DNA of 47,106 bases from a bacterium (GCA_037143175.1 JBAWZF010000020.1:1-47106), one strand, 5' to 3'; shown: positions 580-47,106, counted from the stretch's first letter. Numbers and translations are program-made. Notes: generated by a model from the letters alone, not told the origin.

Positions 580-1470
580 ATGATCAGGGATGATACGGGG
601 TGGATACTGAGACCGTGGGGAAGGTTTTGGATATTCGTTGTACTCTTGAGTACGGCCTATTCGCCTGTCCTATTGCGACTCCTCAGGTACTCCGTTGCAT
701 CTGAACTCGACTCCTATATTCCCCTGATTCCCTTCATATCTGGTTATCTCGTATATTTAAAAAGAGGAACGGTGGCGGTCACCGTTGCACCGCCACCGCA
801 GAAGATTATCCCGATCATTGCATGGGTGGTATCGACTGGTCTGCTTGTTGCTCAAGGTCTGCTCGTGTCTGGTTCCTGGTTTACGGGTGAAGCGAGTGTG
901 CTGGTTTTGCCAGTGATGTCATATATTACGGCGCTCATGGGAGGAGTGGTGTATGTTTTCGGGTGGCCCGCATTTCGGGAGAAGTGGTTTGCGTGGTTAT
1001 TTCTGTATTACATGGTTCCCTTTCCTGAACCGGTGGCGCATCTCTTGATGGTCGCTTTACAACAAGGGTCTGCGGAAGTGGCTTACGCCATGTTCAAGCT
1101 GACGGGAACACCGGTTTTCAGGGATGGCTTAACCTTCTGTCTGCCAGATCTGACGATTCAAGTGGCGGAAGAGTGTAGCGGGATACACTCAAGTATTGTG
1201 CTTTTCATAACAAGTCTGGTCGCAGGCCAGCTATTTCTGAAGAAGCCAGTAGGTCGTATTATGCTTGTTATTCTGGTGCTTCCCCTTTGTCTGATACGCA
1301 ATGGGTTTAGGATCGTCTCGATCTCACTGCTTACGATTTATGTTGATTCAGGGATTATAGCTGGCCCGCTGCATCACCGGGGAGGTCCTGTATATTTTAT
1401 TCTCTCGCTTGGGGTATTGGCGGCAGCTGTATGGGGGATACGGTGGTGTGAAAGAAGGAGGAGTGCTTGA
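580..1470 (+). CDS. xrt: Exosortase (XrtA/EpsH family transpeptidase)
   Basis: A 296-residue polytopic membrane protein with about eight hydrophobic segments. It carries the exosortase triad: Cys199 in VAEECSGIHSS, Arg244 in LIRNGFRI, and His265/His266 in GPLHHRGG. Exosortases are thought to recognise the C-terminal PEP-CTERM tripartite signal of secreted proteins at the inner membrane, cleave it and transfer the protein onward. The likely substrate class is seen at the far right of this window, a VPDGG-CTERM protein. Length fits a core exosortase without a fused EpsI (DUF3485) domain, and no separate EpsI gene is seen. It lies between the prsR-like gene and the TPR lipoprotein, the typical core of EPS-associated exosortase loci. 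I am sure of the family, but not of which Xrt subtype. Confidence 0.93.
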   Translation: MIRDDTGWILRPWGRFWIFVVLLSTAYSPVLLRLLRYSVASELDSYIPLIPFISGYLVYLKRGTVAVTVAPPPQKIIPIIAWVVSTGLLVAQGLLVSGSWFTGEASVLVLPVMSYITALMGGVVYVFGWPAFREKWFAWLFLYYMVPFPEPVAHLLMVALQQGSAEVAYAMFKLTGTPVFRDGLTFCLPDLTIQVAEECSGIHSSIVLFITSLVAGQLFLKKPVGRIMLVILVLPLCLIRNGFRIVSISLLTIYVDSGIIAGPLHHRGGPVYFILSLGVLAAAVWGIRWCERRRSA

Positions 1471-6864: not shown

Positions 6865-8067
6865 ATGAAAGTCAGCCCGAAACGAATTCTTGATGCATTG
6901 CGCTCTGCGATTCGTCCTTGTGTGGAGGGAATTCATCCTGAAGAAATATTCAAGGCGATACTCCGGCATGAGCGAGCTGTGGCTGAGCGGAACAGTCACA
7001 ATATTACGGTGTTGGCCCTTTATGCGAAAAACGGTGAGCTTGATGCCGATACGGCTCAAATTCTCGGCAGGGTATTGGTTGATCGCTTACGTGCCACGGA
7101 CTTAATAGGGTGGCTGGATTCACGTGTGATTGGCGTGATACTCCCTCATACGTGCGCGAAGGACGCCGCCTTGGTGGCTGAGCAGATCTGTGAAAAAATG
7201 ACCGCGCTTCAGGTGTCATTGGATTACAAATTCTATCTTTATCCGCACGATGAGTGTGACAAATGGGGAAAGGATGTTGCGCTGCCGCTTTTCGAAACGT
7301 TCGATAGCTCCCCTTCCGCGAGGGCGGGGCATGAACTATCTCACTTCGATGTCGGGAATTTACGGGATTCAGTTGAAGTCAAGCAGGTTGCCTGGAAAGA
7401 GATAGGCGCACAGCCACTGGCGGATATCTGTGTGTCGCCGATTCCTGTTTGGAAAAGGGGGCTCGATATTCTTCTATGTCTGTTTGGATTGGTTGTGTTT
7501 GGACCCGCGATGCTGCTGATTGCGATGGGGATCAAGCTTGTTGCTCCGGGTCCTGTTCTGTTCCGGCAGGAAAGAATCGGGTTTAGAGGAAAGCCTTTCG
7601 TCTTATATAAATTCAGGTCCATGAAGCTGAATGCCGACACCATTGTGCATAAAGAGCATTTGGCCCAGTTGATGCACTCCAACGCGAGCCTGACCAAACT
7701 GGACAAGGTGGATAAGCGCTTAATTCCTTTTGGGAAAATATTTCGTGCATCTGGGTTTGATGAATTGCCACAGTTATTCAATATCATTCGGGGTGACATG
7801 AGCTTTATTGGCCCGCGGCCTTGTGTCCCCTACGAATACGAGCAATTCACATCTTGGCACAAACGACGTTGTGACACCTACCCGGGGTTGACGGGACTGT
7901 GGCAGGTGAGCGGGAAGAATAAGACGACTTTCACGGAAATGATGCGGCTGGATATCACTTACGGACTACGGCGGAGTTTATTGGAAGATTTAAGGATTTT
8001 GGTGCAGACGATTCCAGCTGTTGTTGGCCAGATAAGGGAGTTGAGTATAGAAAAGAGGCATATATGA
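6865..8067 (+). CDS. Initiating sugar phosphate transferase with an N-terminal degenerate GGDEF-like domain
   Basis: A 400-residue protein with two parts. Residues about 195-400 are a bacterial sugar transferase domain (PF02397). It has one membrane hairpin (KRGLDILLCLFGLVVFGPAM), the basic segment LFRQERIGFRGKPF, and the catalytic Asp299-Glu300 pair in GFDELPQLFNI. Downstream it has FIGPRPCVPYEYE and YPGLTGLWQVSGK. Such enzymes transfer hexose- or HexNAc-1-phosphate to undecaprenyl phosphate and start repeat-unit assembly. The N-terminal 150 residues resemble a diguanylate-cyclase fold (RATDLIGWLDSRVIGVILP), but the GGDEF signature is replaced by DSRVI, so cyclase activity is unlikely. GGGAGG precedes the ATG, and the end overlaps the next start by 4 bases. 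Confidence 0.9.
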   Translation: MKVSPKRILDALRSAIRPCVEGIHPEEIFKAILRHERAVAERNSHNITVLALYAKNGELDADTAQILGRVLVDRLRATDLIGWLDSRVIGVILPHTCAKDAALVAEQICEKMTALQVSLDYKFYLYPHDECDKWGKDVALPLFETFDSSPSARAGHELSHFDVGNLRDSVEVKQVAWKEIGAQPLADICVSPIPVWKRGLDILLCLFGLVVFGPAMLLIAMGIKLVAPGPVLFRQERIGFRGKPFVLYKFRSMKLNADTIVHKEHLAQLMHSNASLTKLDKVDKRLIPFGKIFRASGFDELPQLFNIIRGDMSFIGPRPCVPYEYEQFTSWHKRRCDTYPGLTGLWQVSGKNKTTFTEMMRLDITYGLRRSLLEDLRILVQTIPAVVGQIRELSIEKRHI

Positions 8068-9101
8068 CGAAGCCAGTAAGACTTGCGGTGGTGGGGTGTG
8101 GCTATTGGGGTCCAAATCTGATTCGAAACTTCAGGAGCTTGCCGGATTGTCAATTATCAGATTTGTGTGACGTGAACACGGGTCGCTTAAACCATCTGAA
8201 GTCGTTGTATCCGGATATTACGACGCATGTCTCGTTTGAAGATATGCTGAAGAGCAGGGAGTTGGATGCAATTGTCATAGCGACCCCCGTGCATCTCCAT
8301 CACAAACTGGCCATGATGAGCCTTAATGCCGGAAAGCATGTCATGATTGAGAAGCCGATGGCGAGTTCAGTCACGCAGTGCGATGAAATGGCCGGTGCTG
8401 CTAGGAAAATGAAAGTAACCTTGATGATTGGGCATACCTTTCTCTATTCGCCGCATGTCAGAAAAATAAGCGAGATCGTCAAGTCCGGGGATATCGGGGA
8501 TATCCTCTATATTAGTTCCCGGCGATTGAACCTCGGTTTGTTTCAGAAAGATATAAATGTCATGTGGGACTTGGCGCCTCATGACATCTCGATTATTCAA
8601 TACCTGATGGGGGAGATGCCCAATACCGTCAATTGCCAGGGGAATGCGCATGTGACAAAGGGGATTGAAGACATCGGAAATATGACGCTGATGTTCGCGA
8701 GTGGTCGATATGCCACAGTTCAAGCCAGCTGGCTTGATCCAAGAAAAGTACGCGAAATGACGATCGTGGGGTCGAAGCGAATGATTGTGTACGATGATCT
8801 TGAGCCTTTACATAAGATTACAATATATGACCAGAGGGTGGAAAAGCCGCCGCATTATGATTCGTTCGCCGAGTTCCAATATGCCTACCATTACGGTGAT
8901 ATTTATAGTCCATATGTAAAGCAGGATGAGCCGTTGAAAGTTGAATGTCGGCATTTTCTGGATTGTATACGGTCAGGTGATACCCCAATAACCTCAGCGC
9001 ATCAGGCAACAGGGGTAGTCAGAATTCTGGAAGCGGCGTCTGCTTCGCTGCAAAAAGACGGAGCACGAATTTCAATCGATAATCAGGCTTTGCCAATTTA
9101 A
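8064..9101 (+). CDS. Gfo/Idh/MocA-family sugar dehydrogenase, WlbA/WbpB-like
   Basis: A 345-residue NAD(P)-dependent oxidoreductase. The Rossmann motif GCGYWGPN starts at residue 11, and the MocA hallmark EKPMA at 96-100 supplies the catalytic lysine region. WDLAPHDISIIQYL is typical of the C-terminal domain. It forms an ATGA overlap with the sugar transferase gene. It is followed directly by a hexapeptide N-acetyltransferase and a DegT aminotransferase, the order expected for WlbA-WlbB-WlbC (WbpB-D-E). That set oxidises C3 of a UDP-GlcNAc(A) sugar, transaminates it and acetylates it to a 2,3-diacetamido sugar. The UDP-GlcNAc 6-dehydrogenase (WbpA) is not in the window, so the exact product, acid or not, is uncertain. 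Confidence 0.85.
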   Translation: MTKPVRLAVVGCGYWGPNLIRNFRSLPDCQLSDLCDVNTGRLNHLKSLYPDITTHVSFEDMLKSRELDAIVIATPVHLHHKLAMMSLNAGKHVMIEKPMASSVTQCDEMAGAARKMKVTLMIGHTFLYSPHVRKISEIVKSGDIGDILYISSRRLNLGLFQKDINVMWDLAPHDISIIQYLMGEMPNTVNCQGNAHVTKGIEDIGNMTLMFASGRYATVQASWLDPRKVREMTIVGSKRMIVYDDLEPLHKITIYDQRVEKPPHYDSFAEFQYAYHYGDIYSPYVKQDEPLKVECRHFLDCIRSGDTPITSAHQATGVVRILEAASASLQKDGARISIDNQALPI

Positions 9102-9125
9102 AAATAAGAAAGGAGTGGCCGTTGT

Positions 9126-9620
9126 ATGATTCCCTCGTATCAAAAAAATATTGCGCCCAATGTGAAACTGGGTGAACGCGTTAAAATCTTTGATTTTGCA
9201 AACCTTTACGGATGCGTTATCGGTGATGATACAAAAGTGGGGACTTTCGTTGAAATTCAAAAGGGCGCTAACATTGGTTGCCGTTGCAAAATATCCAGCC
9301 ATACCTTCATCTGTGAAGGGGTTACTATCGAGGACGATGTGTTTGTGGGGCATAATGTAACGTTTATCAATGATCGTTTCCCGCGGGCCACCAATGAGGA
9401 TGGGCAACTCCAGACTGAACAAGATTGGAAGTGCGAGACGACCTTGATTAGAAAAGGGGCGTCTATTGGATCAAGTGTAACGGTGCTATGTGGCGTTACC
9501 ATCGGGGAGCGAGCCATTATCGGCGCAGGTAGTGTGGTGACCAAGAATGTTCCGCCGGACACGATTGTGGCTGGGAACCCTGCGCGAATGATCAGAAAAC
9601 TGAAGGAGAACGCCGCGTGA
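9126..9620 (+). CDS. Hexapeptide-repeat sugar N-acetyltransferase, WlbB/WbpD-like
   Basis: A 164-residue left-handed beta-helix acyltransferase. Hexapeptide repeats run through most of the protein ([50 protein letters not shown]). The signature [15 protein letters not shown] and the closing [12 protein letters not shown] are characteristic of WbpD/WlbB enzymes, which acetylate the 3-amino group of a UDP-2-acetamido-3-amino sugar using acetyl-CoA. AAAGGAG lies 9 bases before the start. The stop overlaps the GTG start of the aminotransferase (GTGA), which supports translational coupling. Confidence 0.88.
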
Positions 9621-10732
9621 AAGTCCCATTCTTAGACCTCAAAGCCCAGTACAATACGATTCGCGAAGAAATTCATACCGCAATACAGGAAGTCCTTGAA
9701 AGTTCAGCGTTTGCCGGCGGGCCGTTCGTTGCCAAATTTGAAGAGCAGTTTGCGGCTTTTTGCGGCGCGAAATATGCAGTTGGAGTGGGGAATGGAACTG
9801 ATGCGCTCTGGTTAGTGATGCTGGCTCAGGGCATCGGGCCGGGTGACGAGGTCGTTACCGTTCCCAATACCTTTATTGCGACTGCAGAAGCCATAAGTAT
9901 ATGTGGGGCCAAGCCGGTATTCGTCGATGTAGACGCCGGGACGTATACGATGGATCCGGCGCGACTGAAGCAGGCGATTACCTCGCGAACCAAGGCGATA
10001 ATCCCGGTGCATCTGTTTGGGCAGACAGCCGATATGGATCCCATATTGGAAATCGCGCGTCAGCACGGATTGCTGGTGATTGAAGATGCGTGCCAGGCGC
10101 ATGGGGCTCAATACAAAGGGCGGATGGCGGGTTCGATAGGCGTTGCGGGATGCTTTAGCTTCTATCCGGGCAAGAATTTAGGAGCATACGGTGAAGCGGG
10201 TGCAGTTGTTACCAATGATGCGGAACTTGCTGGAAAAATCAAAATTTTGCGGGAGCATGGTCAGCCGAAGAAGTATATTCATACAGTTATCGGGTGGAAT
10301 GCGCGTATGGACGGAATTCAAGGCGCCATCCTGAGTGTGAAGCTGAAATATCTGTCAGCTGCGAATGACGCAAGACGCTCAAATGCTCGGCTCTACAACG
10401 AATTGCTGGCCGGGGAGCGTTTGGTTGTATTGCCTGTTGAGGCCTCCTATGCGAAGCATGTGTACCATCTCTATGTAATACAGACCAACAAGCGGGAAGA
10501 ACTTATTCAGCTTCTAGGGGCAAAGGGAATTGCCTGTGGAATTCATTACCCGGTGCCGTTGCATTTACAGGAAGCATACTCCTCATTGAAGTTATCCAAG
10601 GGCGCCTTCCTGGTGGCAGAGGGAAGTGTCCAGCAATTTATCTCGCTACCCATGTTTCCCGAGTTGACCCATGAGCAGATCGCCTATGTTTGTAAAGAAC
10701 TTAGGGCTGCGGTGAAAAATCTGGATCATTAA
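9617..10732 (+). CDS. DegT/DnrJ/EryC1/StrS-family sugar aminotransferase, WlbC/WbpE-like
   Basis: A 371-residue PLP-dependent aminotransferase using a GTG start that overlaps the previous stop. It has the family features [10 protein letters not shown] at the N terminus, GNGTDAL for phosphate binding, EDACQAHGA with Asp157, and [15 protein letters not shown] with the Schiff-base Lys186. Length is typical. In the Wlb/Wbp pathway it converts the C3-keto sugar to the 3-amino sugar with glutamate as donor, between the dehydrogenase and acetyltransferase encoded just upstream. A role in a different amino sugar, such as a 4-amino sugar, cannot be excluded from sequence, but the neighbours favour the 3-amino sugar. 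Confidence 0.9.
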
Positions 10733-33217: not shown

Positions 33218-34723
33218 ATGAACGTTGCTGAGACCATTCTTTGCAAAGGCGATGACGCTGCCAGTGCAGTACTTTGTGGCGATCGCGTATTGACCTACCG
33301 CGACCTTCGCCAGAGTGTCGCACGTCTTGCGACCGGCCTGTTGGCACGGGGCCATGGAAAGGGTGACCGAATTGGAATATGGGCTGAAAACGGCTTTTTC
33401 TTTGTGACTGGCTATTTAGGGATAATCCAAGCTGGACTTGCGGTTGTTCCCTTTCAGACGGAACTTACGGAACAATCGTTTGGAAAAATCGTAGCCAGTG
33501 CGGGCATCAAGGAAGTGCTCGTGTCAAGACGCTTTATGAACCGGTTGCGACCTTTGGCGGAGAAGGTGGGCGTGGGGCTCCTGAGTGAATCCGACTTCCA
33601 AAATCTGCCAGACAATGCGGGGATCCAAATGCCGAACATCAATCCTGACAGGGACCTAGCCGCTTTGATGTTTACTTCGGGGTCAACTGGAGAGCCAAAA
33701 GGCGTCATGGTCACCCATCGGAATATTGCATGCAATTCGTTTGATATTATCTCTTATATGGGCTTGACGCCTGCGGATCGGGTGATGGTAGTGCTCCCTT
33801 TTCACTACTGTTTTGGGGCGTCCTTACTGCATACCCATTTGATGGCTGGAGGATCGATTGTACTGAATAATGAATTCATGTATCCTGAAACGGTGGTGCA
33901 GGAGATGTTGCATAAAGAGTGCACCGGGTTCGCAGGCGTACCCTCAACTTATCAAATTCTGCTGCGGAATTCGCGATTCTGCGAGTTGAGGTTTCCTAAA
34001 CTTCGCTGGCTCCAGCAGGCGGGTGGAAAACTTCCTAATCCGCATATCGTTGAGATTGTTAGGGGATTTCCCAATGTCCGCTTCTATCTCATGTATGGGC
34101 AGACAGAAGCCACTGCCCGGTTGAGTTATCTGCCGCCAGAGCGACTCGCTGATAAACTCGGATCAATTGGCAAAGGTCTTCCGTTGACTTGTCTCGAAGT
34201 GCTGAAGCCGGATGGCGCACCAGTACGACCGGGTTCTGAGGAGACGGGCGAAATTGTAGCCACCGGTGAAAATATCACTTTAGGCTATTGGCACGATTCT
34301 ATTGAGACAGCCAGGTACTTCAGAAACGGCAGTCTTTATACCGGCGATATTGCCCGGGTGGACGCAGATGGCTTCATATACATCGTAGAACGGGAACGAG
34401 AACTGATCAAGTCTGGTGGCAACCGCGTTAGTACCAAAGAGGTGGAAGATGTTATCGCAGAACTCCCTGAGATCGTTGAAGTTGCGGTTCTGGGACTACC
34501 CCATGAAATATTGGGCGAAGCAATTTATGCGTTCGTGGTGGTTACACGAGAGTCAGGAATCACGCCAGACGATGTTGTGACCCACTGTCGAGAGCGACTA
34601 TCTTCATTTAAGGTGCCCAAGACGGTTTTTTTTCTCAAGAACATGCCGCACAATGAAGCGGGAAAAGTTCTAAAGTTAAGACTGAGAGATATGACTTCAG
34701 CAGGTCGTGAAAATGAGAAGTGA
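33218..34723 (+). CDS. AMP-forming acyl/aryl-CoA ligase family (adenylate-forming enzyme)
   Basis: A 501-residue ANL-superfamily enzyme. The AMP-binding P-loop is MFTSGSTGEPKGVMVTHRN (residues 151-169). A5-like YGQTEATARLSYLP, A7/A8 LYTGDIARVDADGFIYIVER and the catalytic lysine Lys483 in NEAGKVLKLRLR are all present. It should activate a carboxylic acid as an adenylate and load it on CoA or on a carrier protein. Exosortase EPS loci often carry an acyl-CoA ligase of this type. An acyl carrier protein is encoded 2.2 kb downstream in the same operon, so loading that carrier is likely. Substrate is not deducible. Confidence 0.9.
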   Translation: MNVAETILCKGDDAASAVLCGDRVLTYRDLRQSVARLATGLLARGHGKGDRIGIWAENGFFFVTGYLGIIQAGLAVVPFQTELTEQSFGKIVASAGIKEVLVSRRFMNRLRPLAEKVGVGLLSESDFQNLPDNAGIQMPNINPDRDLAALMFTSGSTGEPKGVMVTHRNIACNSFDIISYMGLTPADRVMVVLPFHYCFGASLLHTHLMAGGSIVLNNEFMYPETVVQEMLHKECTGFAGVPSTYQILLRNSRFCELRFPKLRWLQQAGGKLPNPHIVEIVRGFPNVRFYLMYGQTEATARLSYLPPERLADKLGSIGKGLPLTCLEVLKPDGAPVRPGSEETGEIVATGENITLGYWHDSIETARYFRNGSLYTGDIARVDADGFIYIVERERELIKSGGNRVSTKEVEDVIAELPEIVEVAVLGLPHEILGEAIYAFVVVTRESGITPDDVVTHCRERLSSFKVPKTVFFLKNMPHNEAGKVLKLRLRDMTSAGRENEK

Positions 34724-36407
34724 AGAAATGACGAAAAAGCGGGTGTGCATGGGGGTGGCGCCTGATCTCGGGTTTAAGCGAGTCCAGTCGCTTCTGCGCG
34801 CTATCAGCGAGCTCTTTCCCGTCGATTTCGTGCCCGTCGGAGAGGCTTGTCACGCCGCTATCATTAAAGGGATCATTGAGCTCAGAGGGGACGGTGTTGA
34901 TGGTTGCGTCGCTGGAGTGGTGAACGTCCCGAGGCTGCTCTATGATCCCGGGACAGGAGCAGCAACCATTCGTCGTTCCCCCAAGGTTGAGTTTCGTGCT
35001 TTGTCTTCGTTGAATACCTGCCTGAGAGGGCAGTGCATGGAGGACTCTGATGTTTCCTCATTTATCCCTCTGGCCCCGGTAGAGGGTGGTGAGATTGTCG
35101 GCTCAATGGAAGGTTGTGCTTTCTGGATAAGACAGGGTAGCGGCCAGTCGAGTACTGATGTGGTCGCGCTCGATTTGCCAACGTTGGGCGCGGGCGGTCA
35201 ACTTCTTGACTATTTCCAGCCGGGAAGATTTGTAAGGTTGCTGCCGCTCCTGGAATTCATTCGAGTTAGGACGTCTAAGGTTGACTGGGATCCCGGCCCT
35301 TTCCGGGCCTGCTTTGTGTTCGACGATCCCAGTCTTGTCCGTCCACGATTCGGTTGCCTGGATTTTCGCGAGTTGGCCAGTCATGCGCGCGCGTATGGTT
35401 ACCATGCCGCGATTGCAATGGTACCGTTAGATGCCGTGCATGCTGGTAACGAGGCCGTTGAGATATTCCGGAAGAATCCCAAGCATCTCTCGTTGATCGT
35501 TCACGGCAATGATCATACTTATCTCGAGCTTGTCAACTGCAGTTCCGATGGTGGCCGCCTGGCACTGCTCGCTCAGGCACTACGTCGTATCGAAGCGTTT
35601 GAGCGATGCCATGGAATGGTCGTAGATCGGGTAATGGAACCTCCCCACGGGGGTGTCGCTCGTGCAATGTTTCCCGCTATGGCTGCCCTTGGGTTTGAGG
35701 CCGCGTTGACCACCGCTCATCATCTGTTTCATTTCGATCCGATGGAGTCATGGCCTTGCTGCTTAGGAATGGACATGGCGGAAGTCATGCCGGGAGGAAT
35801 CGCCACTATTCCCCGAATCCGAATGTTGCCTGATTGGAGGACCGCCGCTGTTTTGGCTGGGTTCCTACGTCAGCCCATCGTGATCGCAGGGCACCATCAG
35901 GATGTGGCTGAGGGATTTGGATTTCTTGCAGAATTCGCACAGATGGTGGCGGGTTTTGGGCCTGTGCGATGGCTTTCACCCACCGGCATTGCCCGCACCA
36001 ATTTCAAGGTGCGCCGGGAGGGGTCGTGCCTTTTAGTCAAAACCTATCAACGGCGAGTGTTCGTGCTGATCCCCGACGGGGTAGATCAGATCATGGTAGA
36101 GCGTGCCTGGGTAACCGAGAACGAGAGTGAGCGGTTGACTGTCGAATCGCGGGCTACGGTCCCTATGTTTTCGGGCGTTTGCGGACGCGTCAGTCCATCC
36201 TTTCAGGTGAATACAGGCGACACGCTGGACATTAAATCGTTCTTTAGACAACCGGTAAGCGCGCAGGAGATTCCGCCTCCGCCCAGGAGACTGTGGCCGG
36301 TGGCCCGGCGTCTCCTGACAGGGACTCGTGATCATTGCTATTCGTGGCTTTACCCGCGGAGTCAGCTATCCGCCTTCAATGAAAGGCTGTTGAACACTCA
36401 GTCATGA
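34713..36407 (+). CDS. Putative NodB/DUF2334-like deacetylase-fold protein of unknown substrate
   Basis: About 564 residues from the ATG at 34713 (AGG 8 bases upstream; an in-frame GTG at 34707 and ATG at 34728 are alternatives). The centre resembles the polysaccharide-deacetylase barrel. RACFVFDDPSLVRPRFG gives a DD pair, LSLIVHGNDHTYLEL a His-rich metal-type motif, and VMEPPHGGVA a third motif. WLSPTGIA lies near the end of this part. About 180 N-terminal residues and 150 C-terminal residues (beta-rich, Pro-rich PPPPRRLWPVARR) are not recognised. There is no signal peptide. It sits between the AMP ligase and the acyltransferase/carrier genes, so it probably acts on the same modification. 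Function is a fold-level guess. Confidence 0.6.
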   Translation: MRSEEMTKKRVCMGVAPDLGFKRVQSLLRAISELFPVDFVPVGEACHAAIIKGIIELRGDGVDGCVAGVVNVPRLLYDPGTGAATIRRSPKVEFRALSSLNTCLRGQCMEDSDVSSFIPLAPVEGGEIVGSMEGCAFWIRQGSGQSSTDVVALDLPTLGAGGQLLDYFQPGRFVRLLPLLEFIRVRTSKVDWDPGPFRACFVFDDPSLVRPRFGCLDFRELASHARAYGYHAAIAMVPLDAVHAGNEAVEIFRKNPKHLSLIVHGNDHTYLELVNCSSDGGRLALLAQALRRIEAFERCHGMVVDRVMEPPHGGVARAMFPAMAALGFEAALTTAHHLFHFDPMESWPCCLGMDMAEVMPGGIATIPRIRMLPDWRTAAVLAGFLRQPIVIAGHHQDVAEGFGFLAEFAQMVAGFGPVRWLSPTGIARTNFKVRREGSCLLVKTYQRRVFVLIPDGVDQIMVERAWVTENESERLTVESRATVPMFSGVCGRVSPSFQVNTGDTLDIKSFFRQPVSAQEIPPPPRRLWPVARRLLTGTRDHCYSWLYPRSQLSAFNERLLNTQS

Positions 36408-36417
36408 GGAGTTCGCT

Positions 36418-36924
36418 ATGAAGAAGTCTCTGGTCCGACGAATCTTTAACCGTTTTTTTCATATTCTGGCTCGTTTCAGCCCTGGTGCCACCAGTCTTCG
36501 CCCGTTATTGCATCGCGCTCGCGGCGTAAAAATCGGCAACAACGTCTTCATTGGCGACGACGTATTCATTGACAACGAGTATCCCGAATGCATCGAGATT
36601 GGTGAAAATGTTCAAATCAGCATCCGGGTTGTCATTATTGCGCATACTCGGGGATCAGGCCGTGTGATTATCGAGAGGGATGCCTTCATCGGACCGCACT
36701 GTGTTATCGCCTGTAGCGCCGGGCGGACACTTTCAATTGGGGCTGGCGCTGTCATCGGCCCCGGTTGTGTCATTACTCGCAATGTTGTACCTCATATTTA
36801 CCTCGTTGTGCCGCCCCCCCGACCCGCCGGCACAGTTACCGTCCCGCTGCCTGCGGCAAAGAGTATGGAGGAGTTTGTCGCAGGGCTTCGCCCGTGGGGG
36901 GGGAGAAGCCACCACAACAGGTGA
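36418..36924 (+). CDS. Hexapeptide-repeat acyltransferase
   Basis: A 168-residue left-handed beta-helix protein. Hexapeptide repeats are seen in ARGVKIGNNVFIGDDVFID, ECIEIGENVQISIRVVIIAH, RVIIERDAFIGPHCVIACSA and LSIGAGAVIGPGCVITRNV. The His in VVIIAHTRG is placed where the catalytic His of CapG/LacA-type O-acetyltransferases lies. The tail after residue 130 (VPPPRPAGTVTVPLP) is Pro-rich and unlike the usual closing helix. It lies 10 bases after the NodB-like gene and just before the carrier protein. It may transfer an acyl group from that carrier or from acetyl-CoA to a sugar. Confidence 0.82.
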   Translation: MKKSLVRRIFNRFFHILARFSPGATSLRPLLHRARGVKIGNNVFIGDDVFIDNEYPECIEIGENVQISIRVVIIAHTRGSGRVIIERDAFIGPHCVIACSAGRTLSIGAGAVIGPGCVITRNVVPHIYLVVPPPRPAGTVTVPLPAAKSMEEFVAGLRPWGGRSHHNR

Positions 36925-36951
36925 ATAGTAAGCGAAGGGGAGGGCCAGCAG

Positions 36952-37206
36952 ATGGACAATACGAACGAAATAAGGAAGTTTGTTGTACAGACCTTCTTGT
37001 TCGGTGAGGTGGACTCACTACAAGACGATACTTCATTCATGGGAGGAGGTATCATTGACTCAACGGGCATCCTGGAACTGATCTCTTTCCTGGAGAAGAC
37101 CTATAATGTAAAGATCCAGCCAGAGGAAATGATCCCCGCGAATTTCGACAGCGTGAACAAGGTGGCTGGGTATCTCGCTAGGAAACGGCTTGTAACTTCA
37201 GTCTGA
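36952..37206 (+). CDS. Acyl carrier protein
   Basis: An 84-residue acidic four-helix protein of ACP/PCP type. Ser37 in GGIIDSTGILELISFLEKTY is the phosphopantetheine attachment site (DSxx motif). The region after it (NVKIQPEEMIPANFDSVNKV) matches helix III and the ACP C terminus. It is not the fatty-acid ACP, because it lies between an acyltransferase and an NadE-like amide synthetase in an EPS operon. It probably carries the acyl or aminoacyl group activated by the AMP ligase at 33218. No dedicated phosphopantetheinyl transferase is seen in the window. Confidence 0.9.
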   Translation: MDNTNEIRKFVVQTFLFGEVDSLQDDTSFMGGGIIDSTGILELISFLEKTYNVKIQPEEMIPANFDSVNKVAGYLARKRLVTSV

Positions 37207-37226
37207 CCCCGGGCCGAAAGGACAGC

Positions 37227-38201
37227 ATGAATACCAAATTATTCTCTGCCGATCATATGAGCCTCGATTGCGCTCGCGAGGTTGATAAAATCACCTCAGT
37301 CATTTGCGAATATGTGCTGCGACGCTTCAAGAAAAAGGGGGTTGTTGTGGCCCTCTCGGGGGGGATAGATAGTAGCGTGGTGGGTGCCCTCTCCGTTAGG
37401 GCATTGGGACGGGAGCGAGTGCTGGGCCTCCTGATGCCAGAACGGGATTCCGGGCATGAAACATTACCCTTGAGCCAACAGGTGAGCAATCATTTGGGGA
37501 TTGAAAAGGTCCACGAAGACATTACGGGAATCCTCGAGTCCGTCGGCTGTTACCTACGTAGGGACGACGCCATCAGATTAGTCGTTCCTGAATATGGGGC
37601 TGGTTGGAAATCGAAAATCGTGCTCCCGAGCGTCCTGGCAGATGATCAGTACCGGCTTTTTTCGGTGATTGTTCAGGATCCGTCAGGTCAACGCTCGGAG
37701 GTTCGCCTGACGCTCGAATCGTACCTGGGGATTGTGGCGGCATCGAATTTTAAGCAGCGGACTCGCAAGATGCTGGAATATTATCATGCCGACCGATTAA
37801 ATTATGCCGTTACGGGTACTCCAAACCGGTTGGAATATGACCAGGGGTTCTTTGTCAAACTGGGTGATGGAGCGGCGGATATCAAGCCAATTGCTCACCT
37901 ATACAAGACGCAAGTCTATCAGATGGCGGAGTATTTGCAGTTGCCTGAAGCTATTCGCAACCGCCCCCCTACCACCGATACATACTCGTTGCCTCAAAGC
38001 CAGGAGGAGTTTTTCTTTTCAGTACCTTATGAAAAGATGGACTTGATTTTATATGGGAAGAATCAAGAGGTCAGTCCTTCGGAGGTGGGGCGCGTGGTCG
38101 GACTTACGGCTGAACAAGTTAAACGAGTTTTCAGGGACATCGAATCCAAACGGCGCGCAGCTTCTTACCTGCATGCTCAACCTGTTCTGGTCGAAAGTTA
38201 G
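37227..38201 (+). CDS. NadE-like ATP-pyrophosphatase (NAD synthetase family amide-forming enzyme)
   Basis: A 324-residue protein with the N-type PP-loop VVVALSGGIDSSVVGALS, followed by GLLMPERDSGHETL, as in NAD+ synthetase. It also has the NadE-like YAVTGTPNRLEYDQGFFVKL and KPIAHLYKTQVYQMAEYL. It has no glutaminase domain. Long inserts between residues 100 and 170 (VVPEYGAGWKSKIVLPS, QDPSGQRSEVRL) are not typical of housekeeping NadE. The position between a carrier protein and AsnB suggests it amidates a cluster-specific carboxylate instead of making NAD; this is inference. A housekeeping role would be expected to show higher similarity and no operon context of this sort. Confidence 0.82.
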   Translation: MNTKLFSADHMSLDCAREVDKITSVICEYVLRRFKKKGVVVALSGGIDSSVVGALSVRALGRERVLGLLMPERDSGHETLPLSQQVSNHLGIEKVHEDITGILESVGCYLRRDDAIRLVVPEYGAGWKSKIVLPSVLADDQYRLFSVIVQDPSGQRSEVRLTLESYLGIVAASNFKQRTRKMLEYYHADRLNYAVTGTPNRLEYDQGFFVKLGDGAADIKPIAHLYKTQVYQMAEYLQLPEAIRNRPPTTDTYSLPQSQEEFFFSVPYEKMDLILYGKNQEVSPSEVGRVVGLTAEQVKRVFRDIESKRRAASYLHAQPVLVES

Positions 38202-38203
38202 TT

Positions 38204-40204
38204 ATGTGTGGAATAGTAGGCATATTCAAAGAAGTTTCGGGCGAACCGCCTAGCGAAAGCGCTCTTCGCCAGATGCTGGCCATGATTCGGCATCGGGGTC
38301 CCGATGAGTTTGGAATCTATCTTGATAGACGTGTGGGGCTTGGTAGCGCGCGGCTGAGCATTATCGACCTGTCAGGCGGTCAACAACCCATCTGCAATGA
38401 GGACGGTACACTTTGGATTGTATTCAACGGCGAAATATTCAATTACCTTGAACTGCGACCGGAACTGGAATCTCGCGGACACCAATTTGCGACCCATACG
38501 GACACCGAGGTTCTGTTGCATCTGTATGAGGAATATGGCTCGCGATGTCTGGAAAAGCTGAATGGCCAATTTGCTTTCGCCATCTGGAATTCCCGCGACC
38601 AGACTCTTTTTCTCGCCCGTGACCGGCTGGGCATTCGTCCGCTGTTCTACACCCGATCCAACGGGTGTCTCATTTTTGGCTCAGAGATCAAGGCGATCTT
38701 GTCTGACCCGCGCGTCAAGGCCGAGCTGGATCCCGTTACGCTTGATCAAATCTTCACCTTTTGGAGTCCACTCTCACCGCTCACGGCTTTTAAGGGAATT
38801 GTTGAACTCCCGCCGGGACACTATTTTCTGGCTCATAAGGAAGAGTTCACCATTCGGCAGTATTGGGAACCTGAGTTTCAATGCGCGGATGAATTCACGG
38901 GCGCATCTGCCCGGTCTCGATTCCTGGATGAGTATCTGGAGGAATTTGAACACCTGCTGGTGGAGGCCGTACGGCTTCGTTTGCGAGCTGATGTGCCGGT
39001 GGGTGCCTACTTGAGCGGTGGTCTGGATTCATCCATTATCGCTTCGATTATTCGCAATTATACGCAAAACCATCTGGATACGTTTTCTATCTCATTCAGC
39101 GATGTGAATTTTGACGAGAGTGTCTTTCAAAGACAGATGGCACAGTTTCTTGGGACGGACCATCAGGTGGTTCATGCCACATACGATGACATCGGGCGTG
39201 TTTTCCCGGAGGTAATCTGGCACACCGAGATCCCCGTGATGCGCACTTCTCCCGCGCCAATGTTTCTATTGTCCAAACTGGTGCGGGATTCCGGATACAA
39301 GGTCGTGCTTACGGGAGAAGGTGCCGATGAATTCCTGGTCGGCTACGACATTTTCAAGGAAGCCAAGATCAGACGTTTCTGGGCCAGTCAGCCTGAATCC
39401 ACGCGGCGTCCAATGCTTTTCGGTCGGCTTTATGCCGATATTGCGGAGTTAGGCAGAAACAATCCTGCCCTCCTGGCGGAGTTCTTCAGAGGGGGATTGA
39501 CTGAAGTGAATGCGCCAACTTATTCGCATGCTGTGCGTTGGCGGAATAACCGACGGACCTGTCGCTTTTTCTCTGGAAGTTTAAAGCAGGAATTGGCGGG
39601 ACAATCTTTATCAGCCATAGAGCAGATCGTCTACCCGTCTCAATTTTCACGCTGGGGCTCTCTGGAACAGGCGCAATTTATTGAAATAACCGTCTTTATG
39701 TCGCAATACCTGCTCTCTTCTCAGGGCGACCGCGTTACGATGGCCCATTCCGTCGAAGGACGCTACCCTTTTCTGGACTATCGCGTTGTCGCGTTCTGTA
39801 ATCGCCTACCCGCTAATCTGAAGTTGCATGGCTTGACCGAGAAATACATGTTAAAAAAACTTGGTCGTAAGTGGCTTCCCAGGGAAATATGGAGGCGGCC
39901 CAAACGCCCCTACCGCGCCCCCGTCCAGCGTAGTTTCTTCAATGAAAAGGGGCATGATTATGTGCGCGAGTTGCTGTCACCCGAAAAAGTAAAAATGACG
40001 GGTTTGTTCAATCCGGCGGCCGTAAGTCAACTTGTTATGAAAGCCAAGCAAGGAATTCCGCTCGGTGAGACAGGTGAAATGGCCTTGGTGGGGATTATAT
40101 CCACACAACTGGTTCATCATCAATTTGTCGAAAAGTTGAGATTGCCTCCTCCGCTTTCGGCGGATGAACCAGTTAAAGTGTGCAATAGGGGAGGTAATAA
40201 ATAA
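38204..40204 (+). CDS. asnB: Glutamine-dependent asparagine synthetase family amidotransferase (AsnB-like)
   Basis: A 666-residue enzyme with an intact class II glutaminase domain: MCGIVGIF supplies Cys2, and RHRGPDEFG, LSIIDLSGGQQPI and NGEIFNYLEL follow. The synthetase domain has GAYLSGGLDSSIIASII (PP-loop) and LTGEGADEFLVGYDIFKEA. Length is close to the AsnB family used in polysaccharide loci. Such proteins (WbpS-like) can amidate uronic acids. With the UDP-GlcA epimerase at 28756 the likely target is a uronic acid or the carrier-bound acid. It follows the NadE-like gene by 2 bases and shares its last base with the next start. Confidence 0.88.
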   Translation: MCGIVGIFKEVSGEPPSESALRQMLAMIRHRGPDEFGIYLDRRVGLGSARLSIIDLSGGQQPICNEDGTLWIVFNGEIFNYLELRPELESRGHQFATHTDTEVLLHLYEEYGSRCLEKLNGQFAFAIWNSRDQTLFLARDRLGIRPLFYTRSNGCLIFGSEIKAILSDPRVKAELDPVTLDQIFTFWSPLSPLTAFKGIVELPPGHYFLAHKEEFTIRQYWEPEFQCADEFTGASARSRFLDEYLEEFEHLLVEAVRLRLRADVPVGAYLSGGLDSSIIASIIRNYTQNHLDTFSISFSDVNFDESVFQRQMAQFLGTDHQVVHATYDDIGRVFPEVIWHTEIPVMRTSPAPMFLLSKLVRDSGYKVVLTGEGADEFLVGYDIFKEAKIRRFWASQPESTRRPMLFGRLYADIAELGRNNPALLAEFFRGGLTEVNAPTYSHAVRWRNNRRTCRFFSGSLKQELAGQSLSAIEQIVYPSQFSRWGSLEQAQFIEITVFMSQYLLSSQGDRVTMAHSVEGRYPFLDYRVVAFCNRLPANLKLHGLTEKYMLKKLGRKWLPREIWRRPKRPYRAPVQRSFFNEKGHDYVRELLSPEKVKMTGLFNPAAVSQLVMKAKQGIPLGETGEMALVGIISTQLVHHQFVEKLRLPPPLSADEPVKVCNRGGNK

Positions 40205-41164
40205 TGTCGAAGATCCGATTTGCGATAGAAGAACTCAAGTTTGTCAAATCGATATCTGGCATTGTGAATTATTACGGAAAAATTCGGTATCTTCTGCCAC
40301 GAGTTATGGGGCTTCCTTATCGCAAAACTCGTATACCCCCCCAGCCTTCAAATTGAGTCCGCCAACGTATGCAACATAGCGTGTTCGTGTTGTTCTGTTG
40401 GGCGAAGCACACGCAAGCGCGGTTTCATGGATATGGGCCTCTTCTAGGGGATCATTTCAGAGGCAGCTAAACTTGGCGTTAAAAGAATTCATCTTTACTT
40501 ACACGGAGAACCACTCCTACATCCGCGTCTTCCAGAAATGGTTCGGTTTATAAAAAACTCCGGATTGGTTCTGCACATAATCACTAATGGTGTGAATCTG
40601 GATTCGACATTGATGAAAGAATTAATGAGTGCGGGGTTAACCAGCGCAGACCATATCATGTTTTCAATATTAGCAAACTCAGCAGCACTTCATGAGCAGA
40701 TCATGAAAGGGGTAAGCCATGATTGCGTGGTTGGCAATATTACGGCATTACTCGAACATAGGAAAAAGAGTGGTGCGAACGGCCCCGTAATTGAAGTGAT
40801 TTGTTATGCCATAAAAGAGAATTGTCGCGAAATTGATGATTTTCTAAACCATTGGCGTGGCCGGGTAGATCACGCCCGCATTTCCGGACGAATTTCGGAG
40901 CATTTCGCAAAAAAGCATACGGGTGAGACGACTTCATTTGAAAGGACAGATACATGTCCGAACATTTGGGAGCGATTGACTGTGTTCTGGAATGGAGACG
41001 TAACGATTTGCTGTGCAGATCTTGATGGTGATTATGTGATTGGAAACCTTGCATCCCAATCGATTCGTGAAATATGGAACTGCCAGAAATTGGACGAAGT
41101 CCGCAAGCTTCATCAGAAGAAACAGTTTCACAGCATTCCTATTTGTCAAAGATGCGATATGTAA
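40204..41164 (+). pseudogene. Radical SAM/SPASM enzyme gene, interrupted by a frameshift and an amber codon
   Basis: Starting at the ATG at 40204, the first 52 codons read normally (MSKIRFAIEELKFVKSISG...). The frame then shifts within a run of seven C at 40336-40342. Removing one C gives PPSLQIESANVCNIACSCCSV, the CxxxCxxC motif of radical SAM enzymes. A TAG at 40445-40447 then interrupts ...RGFMDMGLF*GIISEAAKLG. The remainder is open to 41164, with the barrel strand LYLHGEPLLHPRL and a SPASM-like tail (RTDTCPNIWERL, VTICCADLDGDYVIGNLA, SIPICQRCDM). The ATG at 40538 would give a 208-residue protein lacking the cluster-binding Cys. The bases look more AT-rich than the neighbours, perhaps from transfer. 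Either a decaying gene or sequencing errors. Confidence 0.85.
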
Positions 41165-41874: not shown

Positions 41875-42945
41875 ATGTCAGAGCAAGTCACATTAATAGT
41901 GCCGGAAACAGATCCACGTTGGGACAGGTTTGTCGAGAGCCATCCCTTGGGTATGGTTTACCATTTGTCTGGGTGGAAGCGGGTGATGGAAGCGAGCTTT
42001 CCTCACATGAAGGGCCATTACCTGACCCTGTTGGATGGAACGAGTGACAACATCCGGGCGGCGATGCCCCTATTTGAGGTAAGAAGTTGGCTTACTGGCA
42101 AAAGACTGGTTAGTATTCCCTTCGCCTCAGGGTGTGATCCTTTGATTTCGACCAGTGATGATTTTGCCATTCTCTTTGATTCTTCCCTTTCCTTGTCCCG
42201 TAAACTCGGAATCTCCAGGGTTGAAATCAGAACGTACAGGGCTCTGCCATTGGTCCAAGATGGCCGGCTTGGGCGTAGTGGACTTTATAAGATTCACTAT
42301 CTTTCACTGGAGCAGGGGCCGGAACAGTTATGGAAAAACTTCCATCGGTCTTGCATCAGGCAAAAAATATCGCGGGCCATTAAGAACGAACTGACCATGC
42401 GAACTGTGGAAAGTAAATCTGACTTGCAGGCTTTTTATCGGCTCTACGTGATGACCCGACAGCGGCTTTGTCTTCCGCCCCAGCCCTATACTTTCTTTGA
42501 ATCTCTATGGGACACGTTTTTCGAAAAAAACCATATTACGGCGTTGCTTGCGATCAAAGACGGGAAACCAATTGCCGGCCTGATGCTCTTCCATTTTAAG
42601 GATCGTGTTTCCGCGGAGTTTGGGGTTTCCGATCATACTTATTGGGACTTTAATCCAAACCATTATCTGTTCTGGGAGGCGATCCAATCAGCCTGTCGCC
42701 AGGGATTTGAAGTTTTTGATTTCGGCCGGACTTCACCCCATAATCGGGAGTTAATGGATTTTAAGGGGCGCTGGGGTGCTGTTGAGGCTGATTTGGTGGA
42801 ATTCCAGTATCCGCGAAAAGTTCGCAATGAGGTTACTGTACGCGAGCATTCTGGATCTTACCAGTTGATGAGGCGTCTATTGCAATATGTCCCAGAATCG
42901 ATGTTCGAGCGATTTGGTGGCTTTTGCTATCGTCATTTAGGCTAA
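41875..42945 (+). CDS. FemAB/GNAT-like protein, second copy
   Basis: A 356-residue relative of the protein at 10821. Both share the layout LSGWKRVMEASFPH / FNSIEWARVLSESY, the core RSWLTGKRLVSIPFASGCDP, the segment RQKISRAIKNEL, and the C-terminal QSACRQGFEVFDFGRTSPHN before a short arginine/tyrosine end (YRHLG in one, YRHMG in the other). The start codon follows the YdcF-like stop without a gap. FemAB-like proteins in exosortase loci may transfer an aminoacyl group from tRNA, or another acyl group, to sugar or peptidoglycan; the real substrate is unknown. Confidence 0.75.
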   Translation: MSEQVTLIVPETDPRWDRFVESHPLGMVYHLSGWKRVMEASFPHMKGHYLTLLDGTSDNIRAAMPLFEVRSWLTGKRLVSIPFASGCDPLISTSDDFAILFDSSLSLSRKLGISRVEIRTYRALPLVQDGRLGRSGLYKIHYLSLEQGPEQLWKNFHRSCIRQKISRAIKNELTMRTVESKSDLQAFYRLYVMTRQRLCLPPQPYTFFESLWDTFFEKNHITALLAIKDGKPIAGLMLFHFKDRVSAEFGVSDHTYWDFNPNHYLFWEAIQSACRQGFEVFDFGRTSPHNRELMDFKGRWGAVEADLVEFQYPRKVRNEVTVREHSGSYQLMRRLLQYVPESMFERFGGFCYRHLG

Positions 42946-42960
42946 ATCAGGGACACCGTT

Positions 42961-44475
42961 ATGCCAAATAATAAAGTCATGTTTATCCAGCCCCCTTTCT
43001 TCAGGCTTTTCAAGGATACCTTCTCATTTAATGGATATCCGTTCTCTTTGGGTTATCTTGCGGGAACCGTGAAAAAAGAAACGTCATGGGAGGTTTCTGC
43101 GTATAATTCCGACTTCAATCCCAAATCCGTTTTGGGTAACGATAATGTTACGTTCTCCTTTCAGGCGGGAGAAGGCTACACCAATTACATTAATAATCTT
43201 GCGGATGCGAGTGCCCCGATCTGGAACGAGATTCGGGAGACCATCGGAAAAGTCAGTCCCACTGTCGTTGGCATTTCTTGCACATCCCAGAATTTCAAGG
43301 CCGTTGAAAGGGTTGCCCAGATCGCCAAAGACATTGATAGCAGCACTTTGGTCCTCGTTGGCGGGCCTCATCCTTCCATGGTCGGTTCGGAGGTACTCAA
43401 GTGTGGTGCGATTGACATTGCCGCGAGAGGGGAAGGGGAGCGGACCATCCTTGAAGTCCTTGATGCGGTTTTACAGAAGAAATCGTTTAGCCACATATAT
43501 GGCATTGCCTATCGCAGTCATGGCCAGGTTATTGAAACCGGACCACGGGATTTGATTCAGGATTTGGATTCGCTTTGTTTTCCGTATGATTCGATGGAAG
43601 AGGTGCTTATCGGGTATGACCAGTATCCATTGAACGCGTTTGGTTCAATCTTCGCGTCCCGTGGATGTCCTTTTGGCTGTACTTTCTGCGGATCACGGAA
43701 AATCTGGGGCCGAACAGTGCGGCTACGATCTCCGGGGAATGTTGTCAAGGAGCTTGCACGACTCCAGAAACGGGGATTCACTTCGGTCAGGTTTGCAGAC
43801 GACTCTTTTGGCGTAAACAGGAAATGGCTGAAAGAATTATGCGAAACGATTAAGTTGAAATGCCCTGATTTGAAATGGAAATGCGAGATGAATGTCGGCG
43901 TGATCAATGATGAAACTTTGTCCCTCATGAAATCGGCGGGATGTCATATGATCGAACTGGGTATTGAATCGGGCGATAATCGGGTGTTGAAGGAAATCAA
44001 GAAGGGCATCACGATCGAACAGGCTCTGGTCGCCTGCAAATTGGTCAATAAATACGGGATCGAACTTCAGGCCTACATAATGGCCGGGTTTCCTCAAGAG
44101 ACGGAAGAGTCACTGCTTAATACCCGCAACGCCATCCGGAAAATTAACGGGTATATCTGTTTCAACGTTTTTAGCCCGTTCCCAGGGACGGAACTGTATG
44201 AGTTGTGCAAAGAAAAGAAGCTCATCGCCGACGATTATGACGTTTGCCTGCACAGTTATCAAAACCTGGACAGTTTCTGTATATCTCTGCCGAGGGATAA
44301 ATTCAGAAAAATCGTCTCTGAAATGATTCGGGAAGTTGACCGGAAAAACAAACTCAATCGGATTAGGCGAATATTTTCCACCAATACGATCTGGCGATTG
44401 AAAGAGTATGGCCTTATGAAAGGGATGAAAAAAGGGGTTCGGATAATGTTTGCAAGGAAATCCTTGTATCCATGA
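42961..44475 (+). CDS. B12-binding domain radical SAM enzyme
   Basis: A 504-residue enzyme with an N-terminal cobalamin-binding-like domain (MFIQPPFFRLFKDTF, VSPTVVGISCTSQNFKAVER, LVLVGGPHPSMVGSE, AARGEGERTILEVL). A radical SAM domain follows, with SRGCPFGCTFCGSR and the 4Fe-4S cysteines Cys236, Cys240 and Cys243. Further signatures are VRFADDSFGVNRKWLKELCE, MIELGIESGDNRVLKEIKKG and YIMAGFPQETEESL. The usual DxHxxG B12 motif is not evident, so base-off His ligation is doubtful. Class B family members methylate or rearrange unactivated carbons. In this locus a sugar or its acyl substituent is a likely substrate. The 3' end overlaps the next start by 4 bases. Confidence 0.88.
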   Translation: MPNNKVMFIQPPFFRLFKDTFSFNGYPFSLGYLAGTVKKETSWEVSAYNSDFNPKSVLGNDNVTFSFQAGEGYTNYINNLADASAPIWNEIRETIGKVSPTVVGISCTSQNFKAVERVAQIAKDIDSSTLVLVGGPHPSMVGSEVLKCGAIDIAARGEGERTILEVLDAVLQKKSFSHIYGIAYRSHGQVIETGPRDLIQDLDSLCFPYDSMEEVLIGYDQYPLNAFGSIFASRGCPFGCTFCGSRKIWGRTVRLRSPGNVVKELARLQKRGFTSVRFADDSFGVNRKWLKELCETIKLKCPDLKWKCEMNVGVINDETLSLMKSAGCHMIELGIESGDNRVLKEIKKGITIEQALVACKLVNKYGIELQAYIMAGFPQETEESLLNTRNAIRKINGYICFNVFSPFPGTELYELCKEKKLIADDYDVCLHSYQNLDSFCISLPRDKFRKIVSEMIREVDRKNKLNRIRRIFSTNTIWRLKEYGLMKGMKKGVRIMFARKSLYP

Positions 44476-44996
44476 AGCAGGCTCTTTGCCAGTTATGCTG
44501 TGTTAGTGGGATGGGGGAACCGTTGGCTTTCTTCGACGTCCTATGGCAACGGATTAACCGTCTCAAACGGTTTATCCGACGGCGGGTGTGTTATCTTCAT
44601 AATTTCATTTTCAGGCGCAATAGGGGGGGACGTATGACAACATCCAGTAACATTCCTGGCCTGATTCGGGTTGAATTGAAACCAGGTGATAAGGTTCGGG
44701 TTCGGTCGCGAGAAGAAATTGAAGCCACGCTCAACTCGTGGAACCAGTTCAAGCATTGTGCTTTCATGGAGGAAATGTGGCCCTACTGCGGAACGACGCA
44801 GACAGTTTTCAAGAGAGTGTTAAAATTCCTGGATGAGAGAGATTATCTCGTCAAGAAATGCAGCGGCATGGTTATTTTGCGCGATGTTATTTGTGAAGGG
44901 ACGAGGGATTTCGGGCCATGCGATAGATCCTGCTTTCTTTTTTGGCGTGAAGAATGGGTGGAACGGATTTCTGATTCTAATGAGTCTTCGCAATAG
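44472..44996 (+). CDS. Conserved protein of unknown function, Cys-rich, found in secondary-metabolite and polysaccharide loci
   Basis: A 174-residue protein overlapping the radical SAM stop (ATGA). A later ATG at 44634 with a G-rich site upstream would give a 120-residue protein that still contains the whole conserved part. That part runs from LKPGDKVRVRSREEIEATLN through FMEEMWPYCGTTQTVFKRV and FLDER to LRDVICEGTRDFGPCDRSCF and LFWREEWVERI. I recognise this pattern (GD-V-V-S-EEI-TL, EM--YCG, C-G, CPR/CDRS, WRE-W) as a recurring uncharacterised family. The conserved Cys/His set suggests metal or cofactor binding. The N-terminal 54 residues are Arg/Cys-rich with no clear signal peptide. Confidence 0.72.
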   Translation: MKQALCQLCCVSGMGEPLAFFDVLWQRINRLKRFIRRRVCYLHNFIFRRNRGGRMTTSSNIPGLIRVELKPGDKVRVRSREEIEATLNSWNQFKHCAFMEEMWPYCGTTQTVFKRVLKFLDERDYLVKKCSGMVILRDVICEGTRDFGPCDRSCFLFWREEWVERISDSNESSQ

Positions 44997-46403: not shown

Positions 46404-47106
46404 TTAGGGCTTGGCATGTATACGCCGTTGAAGGACGCCCAGGATCACCAGCGAGCAACCCAGTAATAGTGCAGTTGCTCCACCATCAGGAACCTGATGA
46501 AAGCCCGCCGCTCCGCTATTGGGCGTGTTATTGGCAATCCTGTACAGATAAGAAGTTTCTGTATCTGAAGGTGGGGGCGGCAGGTCGCGTTTCCTGAGAT
46601 TTGAGTAAGAGATGCTTGGCGCTTCAGGAATTGCATACCTTCCAATTCCGAAGATATCCACTCTCAAATCAATGGGCGTTGTTATCGTGACCGACCCAAT
46701 CTGGGCATCCGTTACTGACCCAAGATCTAGCCATACTCGAGCAGCGGCATGATAGGCATCGGGAAAAATAATTCCCAGCACCTCGCCATTCCCTACTCCC
46801 GGTACTGGAACTGGCAAATTACAAGTGCTCGTAGATAGGAACTCGGCCGTAAGAAAACTTTGTGACACCAGAGTTCCCCCCACGTTCAATGTGAAACCCA
46901 CTTCCCCCAGCGAGGATAGGTCGGATGGCCTGCCGGAAAACACAAAGAGAATGGACTCTATGTTTGCTCTGCCCATATCCGGGCCAGCATACAGAGCAGA
47001 ACTTTCCCCACTTCCGTAAACCATAGGGCCATCCAAGAAATGGGCAGCAGGTGGCCGGGAAACACCGGCGGGGTAGAGTATCCCCCAGCCGCAGAAGCCA
47101 AGTCGC
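46404..47106 (-). CDS. Secreted protein with a C-terminal VPDGG-CTERM sorting signal (5' end beyond the window)
   Basis: The minus-strand frame is open to the right edge with no stop. The protein therefore lacks its N terminus in this window; the TTG at 47036 should not be taken as the start. At least 234 residues are visible. The C terminus is a complete exosortase signal: HQVPDGGATALLLG (VPDGG at 46479-46493), a hydrophobic helix (ALLLGCSLVILGVL) and the basic tail QRRIHAKP. The upstream part is a beta-rich secreted domain (GFTLNVGGTLVSQSFLTAEF, DLRVDIFGIGRYAIPEAPS) of the kind often found in PEP-CTERM proteins. It should be a substrate for an exosortase such as that at 580. It is the only PEP-CTERM substrate visible. 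Confidence 0.88.
   Translation of the reverse strand, partial: RLGFCGWGILYPAGVSRPPAAHFLDGPMVYGSGESSALYAGPDMGRANIESILFVFSGRPSDLSSLGEVGFTLNVGGTLVSQSFLTAEFLSTSTCNLPVPVPGVGNGEVLGIIFPDAYHAAARVWLDLGSVTDAQIGSVTITTPIDLRVDIFGIGRYAIPEAPSISYSNLRKRDLPPPPSDTETSYLYRIANNTPNSGAAGFHQVPDGGATALLLGCSLVILGVLQRRIHAKP

Follow-up and report, generated by a model that had tools for sequence, protein, structure and literature searches.

Four genes of a bacterial EPS locus, coding for an AMP-forming ligase, a discrete acyl carrier protein, a NadE-like enzyme and an AsnB-type amidotransferase, recur together in distant genomes, which supports the view that their products act as one pathway conserved as a unit across many phyla. 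We consider it fairly probable that they form a portable carrier-protein pathway, in which an acid is loaded onto the carrier, one or two ATP-dependent steps form C-N bonds and the resulting group, probably bearing an amide, is passed to an acceptor. The four genes, called the core below, lie at positions 33218-40204 of the window, i.e., the whole stretch of 47,106 nucleotides that was analyzed, together with two other genes.

33218..34723, + strand: AMP-forming ligase (core), catalytic residue K483; PF00501/PF13193, TIGR03098, pocket alignment.
34707..36407, + strand: NodB-like protein, a motif-level label, local extra outside the core; shared motifs, 1/80 loci.
36418..36924, + strand: hexapeptide acyltransferase, occasional non-core partner; PF00132, 3/80 loci.
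36952..37206, + strand: discrete acyl carrier protein (core), phosphopantetheine Ser37 in GIIDSTG; PF00550, NF052616 at 49.5 bits, below the cut-off of 130.
37227..38201, + strand: NadE-like PP-loop enzyme (core), PRK00876/NF002048 subfamily; PF02540, NF002048 score, structure model, tree.
38204..40204, + strand: AsnB-type glutamine-dependent amidotransferase (core); PF00733/PF13537, TIGR01536, intact active sites.

A sequence-only reading of this DNA had described six consecutive genes, overlapping in places and with gaps of at most 27 bases, as a single pathway. All six ORFs were found at the place and on the strand described, with intergenic gaps of 2 to 27 bases and a single 17-base overlap. 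The catalytic features listed in that reading were also present in the translations, namely, the ligase P-loop (TSGSTGEPKG at 153) and K483, S37 of the carrier, SGGIDSS at 44 of the NadE-like protein and Cys2 of AsnB.

Using the NadE-like protein as the sole query, we searched one genome per species (84,980 species) and kept 80 loci, picked by close similarity. Within the fetched flanks, to which all neighbor counts refer since many of the contigs stop within the cassette, a ligase was present in 68 loci, AsnB in 64 and the carrier in 58. All three were found in 19 of the 30 loci with full flanks, and at least two of them in 28. De novo clustering of the neighbors placed the same four families on top, followed by a sharp drop to the fifth, an SGNH-like family (17 to 21 loci). 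The order of the core genes differed between loci, which came from Verrucomicrobiota, Planctomycetota, Kiritimatiellota, Fibrobacterota, Spirochaetota, Actinomycetota, Acidobacteriota, Myxococcota, Thermodesulfobacteriota and others. Pairwise distances of the four core proteins were correlated over 48 loci (r of 0.35 to 0.48, uncorrected for species phylogeny), and none of 2000 permutations attained the observed r. As a chance control, only three AMP-binding matches and a single strong Asn_synthase match were counted in the 3.3-Mb genome of the window. In all six other genomes of the window's class that scored above the NF002048 cut-off, the NadE-like gene has AsnB beside it, together with a ligase or A domain. 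Co-occurrence in other genomes, a check proposed in the sequence-only reading, was thus observed for the ligase, carrier, NadE-like and AsnB genes, and the loss of the set as a unit in relatives, named there as a blow to the proposal, was not seen for this core.

The claim of a single pathway nevertheless held for these four genes only, as the NodB-like and hexapeptide proteins were present in 1 and 3 of the 80 loci, respectively, within the fetched flanks. Because they are missing from nearly all other copies, the unit comprises four genes rather than six, and a six-gene module is ruled out. The NodB-like protein was found in 2 of 192 other genomes of the window's class. Its label was borne out in part: DDP, HGN-x-H and PxG motifs are common to four homologues, but no Pfam or NCBIfam match was obtained at E<0.01, and its profile matched that of a genuine polysaccharide deacetylase weakly (8.5% probability). 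Given this weak profile support, "NodB-like" remains a motif-level label. The structure model of the protein is poor (pLDDT 35). As for the hexapeptide protein, it is possible that it transfers the carrier-bound group.

AsnB scored 519.8 bits against TIGR01536, above the cut-off of 267.1. Its glutaminase and synthetase residues (Cys1, Arg49, Asn74, Glu76, Asp98, the P-loop, Glu348 and Asp351) are kept in nearly all of 64 copies, and AsnB should therefore deliver glutamine nitrogen through an adenylate. Relatives of the ligase and of AsnB, ligase_PEP_1 (TIGR03098) and eps_aminotran_1 (TIGR03108), occur in exosortase EPS loci of the XrtA/PEP-CTERM type. However, the window proteins score far below the cut-offs of these XrtA ligase and amidotransferase families (337.5 versus 592.35 bits and 447.1 versus 816.9 bits, respectively).

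The ligases form two motif groups, or clades, of 39 and 31 sequences, and the window ligase belongs to clade I. On the NadE-like tree, the two clades were exchanged at least four times when well-supported branches were considered and 13 times by parsimony, indicating that the loaded acid may vary between loci. No variation was seen at Met322 and Arg331 (A-domain numbering) across 74 ligases from the two clades, and neither residue is present in EntF, EntE, FadD or MenE, the few reference ligases compared. A second anionic or acidic group on the ligase substrate is a reasonable but weak reading of this invariance, and Arg331 may be a trait of the wider family. At pocket position 235, most clade II members have Asp and the others Gly; Cys, Val or Ile occupies this position in clade I. 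With such mixed residues, the A-domain code does not establish an alpha-amino acid as the substrate.

In the pathway that we propose, the ligase would adenylate a small acid and attach it to the carrier's phosphopantetheine. Two enzymes would each convert a carboxylate or amide to an adenylate and make a C-N bond: AsnB, with glutamine as its nitrogen source, and the NadE-like enzyme, probably with ammonia. The simplest such step would be the amidation of a free carboxylate on a carrier-bound or acceptor-bound group. A locus-specific transferase would then hand the group to the acceptor; this would be the hexapeptide or FemAB-like protein in the window and an SGNH-like protein, a GNAT-like protein or an NRPS condensation domain elsewhere. 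The acceptor in the window would probably be a sugar of the exosortase-associated polysaccharide. We infer the substrate, the order of the C-N and transfer steps and the acceptor.

The EPS locus that makes up the window is associated with an exosortase and also has an export protein, a Wzc-like protein, glycosyltransferases and a polysaccharide deacetylase. One ORF codes for a protein that terminates with VPDGG and a hydrophobic tail. The features that bear on the acceptor are as follows.

580..1470, + strand: exosortase, closest to XrtC; PF09721, TIGR04151 at 189 bits, below the cut-off of 300.
8064..10732, + strand: WbpB-, WbpD- and WbpE-like genes, candidate route to a diamino-uronic acid sugar; Pfam families, NCBIfam.
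41875..42945, + strand: FemAB/VimA-like protein, candidate acceptor-side transferase; TIGR03019 at 169 bits, below the cut-off of 260.
46404-47036, - strand: ORF ending VPDGGATALLLGCSLVILGVLQRRIHAKP, likely VPDSG-type exosortase target; not matched by NCBIfam at 1e-5.

In this setting, the acceptor is likely to be a polysaccharide linked to the exosortase. If the product does decorate polysaccharides, the finding would also bear on the conjugate of exosortase systems. The sequence-only reading had placed the module inside an EPS operon, a role that does not hold in general, as rhizobial copies lie outside EPS loci and an EPS marker was found in 34 of the 80 loci and in 19 of the 30 with full flanks. 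The acceptor claim is weak because some core copies stand outside EPS loci.

The same neighborhood invites another explanation. The AsnB homologue WbpS is required for the uronamide of the linking sugar of the Porphyromonas gingivalis T9SS, and the authors suggested that PEP-CTERM systems may produce a similar compound by means of their VimA-related FemAB proteins (Veith et al. 2020; PMC7468200). In the same work WbpS makes the uronamide and VimA is assigned seryl transfer. A uronamide or an aminoacyl sugar is thus a live rival in the window: AsnB would act like WbpS to convert a diamino-uronic acid to a uronamide, the ligase and carrier would provide a FemAB/VimA-like transferase with an aminoacyl group, and the sugar would join exosortase targets to the polysaccharide. 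The exosortase, the Wbp-like genes, the two FemAB proteins, the deacetylase and the VPDGG-tailed ORF all suit this explanation, and so does a genome of the same genus (G044) in which the core adjoins WbpE- and WbpD-like genes. The described route, which resembles the window in combining an AsnB-type amidotransferase, Wbp-type genes and a FemAB-like transferase with a sortase-type system, has no ligase, carrier or NadE-like enzyme, and it leaves the last of these with no job. WbpB-, WbpE- and WbpD-like genes were found near 8, 7 and 14 of the 80 cores, respectively, and FemAB2-type genes near 6, and rhizobial copies, which this explanation leaves unaccounted for, have no adjacent Wbp or FemAB genes. 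Both FemAB (TIGR03019-type) proteins of the window (125 and 169 bits) and its exosortase score below equivalog cut-offs, as do the family-level matches of the WbpB/E/D-like genes; three UDP-sugar dehydrogenase-type matches are located elsewhere in the genome. We regard a linking sugar of this type as unlikely.

Compact asnB-acp-ligase-nadE clusters were found on plasmids of Sinorhizobium medicae, Mesorhizobium ciceri, Rhizobium sp. and Shinella sp. Their neighbors differ, with two of the four clusters adjoining minCDE, and no EPS locus was found in the annotated flanks of the plasmid records, indicating that the core is a portable pathway rather than an EPS specialty. The S. medicae four-gene cluster is matched over its whole length by S. 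meliloti 1021 pSymB (88.6%). The S. meliloti carrier SMb20651 was reportedly described by Ramos-Vega in 2009. As the pSymB record carries no locus tags, we infer from replicon and adjacency that SMb20651 and the ligase SMb20650 belong to this cluster, and hence that the genes studied in S. meliloti are part of the same four-gene core as in the window. SMb20650 is reported to be cotranscribed with SMb20651, to acylate it in vivo in Escherichia coli and not to substitute for FadD on oleate (PMC7232532). Loading of the carrier by the ligase, which the sequence-only reading had proposed to test, is thus reported for this pair. SMb20651 has also been listed among carriers needing further functional work, as the sole SMb-numbered entry (PMC5686131). 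The S. meliloti case differs from the window in that the ligase is of the other clade, there is no EPS context and the studied genes are the ligase and carrier alone; no account of the asnB and nadE-like genes as their partners was found in the literature searched. The presence of a copy in this model symbiont makes the question testable in a tractable strain.

These rhizobial clusters would also fit a small diffusible metabolite or a peptide-like product, the EPS placement being incidental. Diverged versions of the core point the same way. In two genomes of the window's class, a diverged NadE-like/AsnB pair is accompanied by NRPS parts (L130:4975-13663 and L129:5014-14501). The ligase and carrier are fused as one A-PCP protein in L130, with a C-A-PCP module after AsnB and a phosphopantetheinyl transferase gene, and a C-A-PCP protein lies close to the pair in L129. 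Judged by this gene content, L130 and L129 are an NRPS version of the core. NRPS condensation modules accompany the core, or parts of it, in these two loci and in L075. Against a diffusible product stand the EPS marker frequencies given above and the position of the window copy, deep within an EPS locus, and we accord it a low probability.

The automatic name of the NadE-like protein, NAD(+) synthase, stems from its scores against NF002048 (PRK00876 subfamily; 503.8 bits, above the curated cut-off of 313) and TIGR00552 (153.5, above cut-off). The subfamily is rare: in a sample of 288 genomes of the class, the NF002048 cut-off was exceeded in 7, including that of the window, while some match was obtained in 284. 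The genome of the window encodes a separate NadE (642-residue frame). The sequence-only reading had identified the lack of any other nadE, combined with similarity to the housekeeping enzyme, as fatal to its proposal; neither was found. It had also suggested comparing the protein with true NadE in a tree, which we did. A branch with support 99 separates all 47 sampled NadE-like members from 11 true NadE, some of which have very long branches.

The PP-loop SGGIDSS and the ATP/Mg positions (Glu, Asp, Lys and Thr) are kept in the NadE-like members. In contrast, the NadE substrate loop P(S/T)A(D/G)L is absent, replaced by P-T-T-D-T-Y-S-x-x-Q, which is nearly invariant in 48 members; the subfamily motif reads RPPTTDTYS-x-PQSQEE. 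An insertion with extra strands is located at about 128-160. The structure model is good (pLDDT 91.8), and its leading PDB fold matches are without exception NAD synthetases, at 17-25% identity. From general knowledge of the fold, we read these features as adenylation chemistry retained with a changed substrate. The second NadE in the genome, the 7/288 rarity, the altered substrate loop and the separate clade rule out the identity of a housekeeping NadE, from which the protein is, on these sequence criteria, distinct. These same points, together with the tie of the NadE-like gene to the core across phyla, make it very improbable that the enzyme is a spare NAD synthetase beside a pathway of ligase, carrier and AsnB only, in spite of its TIGR00552 score, its fold matches and its ATP site.

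Within the carrier-protein pathway that we favor, the NadE-like enzyme suggests a bolder possibility, which we put forward tentatively. A repurposed NAD synthetase in a widespread, horizontally spread pathway would make a second C-N bond (a second amide, an amidine or a nitrile) after loading by the ligase and amidation by AsnB, yielding a group new to bacterial polysaccharides or small molecules.

The nearest described logic is that of the glutarimide starter cassettes (SmdFGH/ChxBCD/LtmHCD type), which pair a discrete carrier with an AsnB homologue, a combination proposed to convert malonyl-carrier to malonamyl-carrier (PMC7756379). The core has both of these components, encoded near one another in many loci. 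However, the carrier is loaded by an acyltransferase in those cassettes and by an AMP ligase in the core, and the cassettes feed a polyketide synthase and are not described with a NadE-like enzyme; no PKS domain was found among the window proteins searched by Pfam and NCBIfam profiles. The core would thus work like a carrier-bound amidation cassette, yet it is not a member of the glutarimide set. A paper treating the four core genes as one pathway was not found in our literature search, from which subscription articles were mostly out of reach, nor were biochemical data on the AsnB or NadE-like enzyme of the core in the literature searched. "NAD(+) synthase" and "asparagine synthase" annotations in at least 10 phyla fall in the core, and these housekeeping names thus conceal an unnamed pathway.

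Several other genes were observed near the core. The SGNH-like protein, which has an FGHQSVG-type motif and adjoins the core in 21 of the 80 loci (e.g., L011:11003-11827), is a candidate acyltransferase or esterase; the label was assigned by eye, no Pfam match being found. A protein of about 370 residues, GNAT-like by eye and also with no Pfam match, is found next to the core both in rhizobia and in other phyla (L105:4093-5202, L104:9971-11047, L103:10024-11139, L126:11751-12845, L064:6240-7490 and L042:10899-12077). The rhizobial protein was considered as a FemAB and rejected, as the FemAB profile gave no match.

In the window, a radical SAM/SPASM gene (40203-41164) immediately after AsnB is disrupted twice: the frame changes near a C run (about 40340), and a TAG codon lies in frame near 40446. 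Its open frame covers the C-terminal part only (40538-41164), which may reflect a pseudogene or an error in the assembly. A second AsnB-like protein (17955-19805) starts with MNG and has no Cys2 but retains an SGGVDS P-loop; it may be a synthetase that uses ammonia or an amine. Its gene is followed by a DUF362-like gene (19805-21271). Finally, a small cysteine-containing protein with no assigned family is encoded near the core in three loci (window 44472-44996, L042:5554-6183 and L012:2767-3438).
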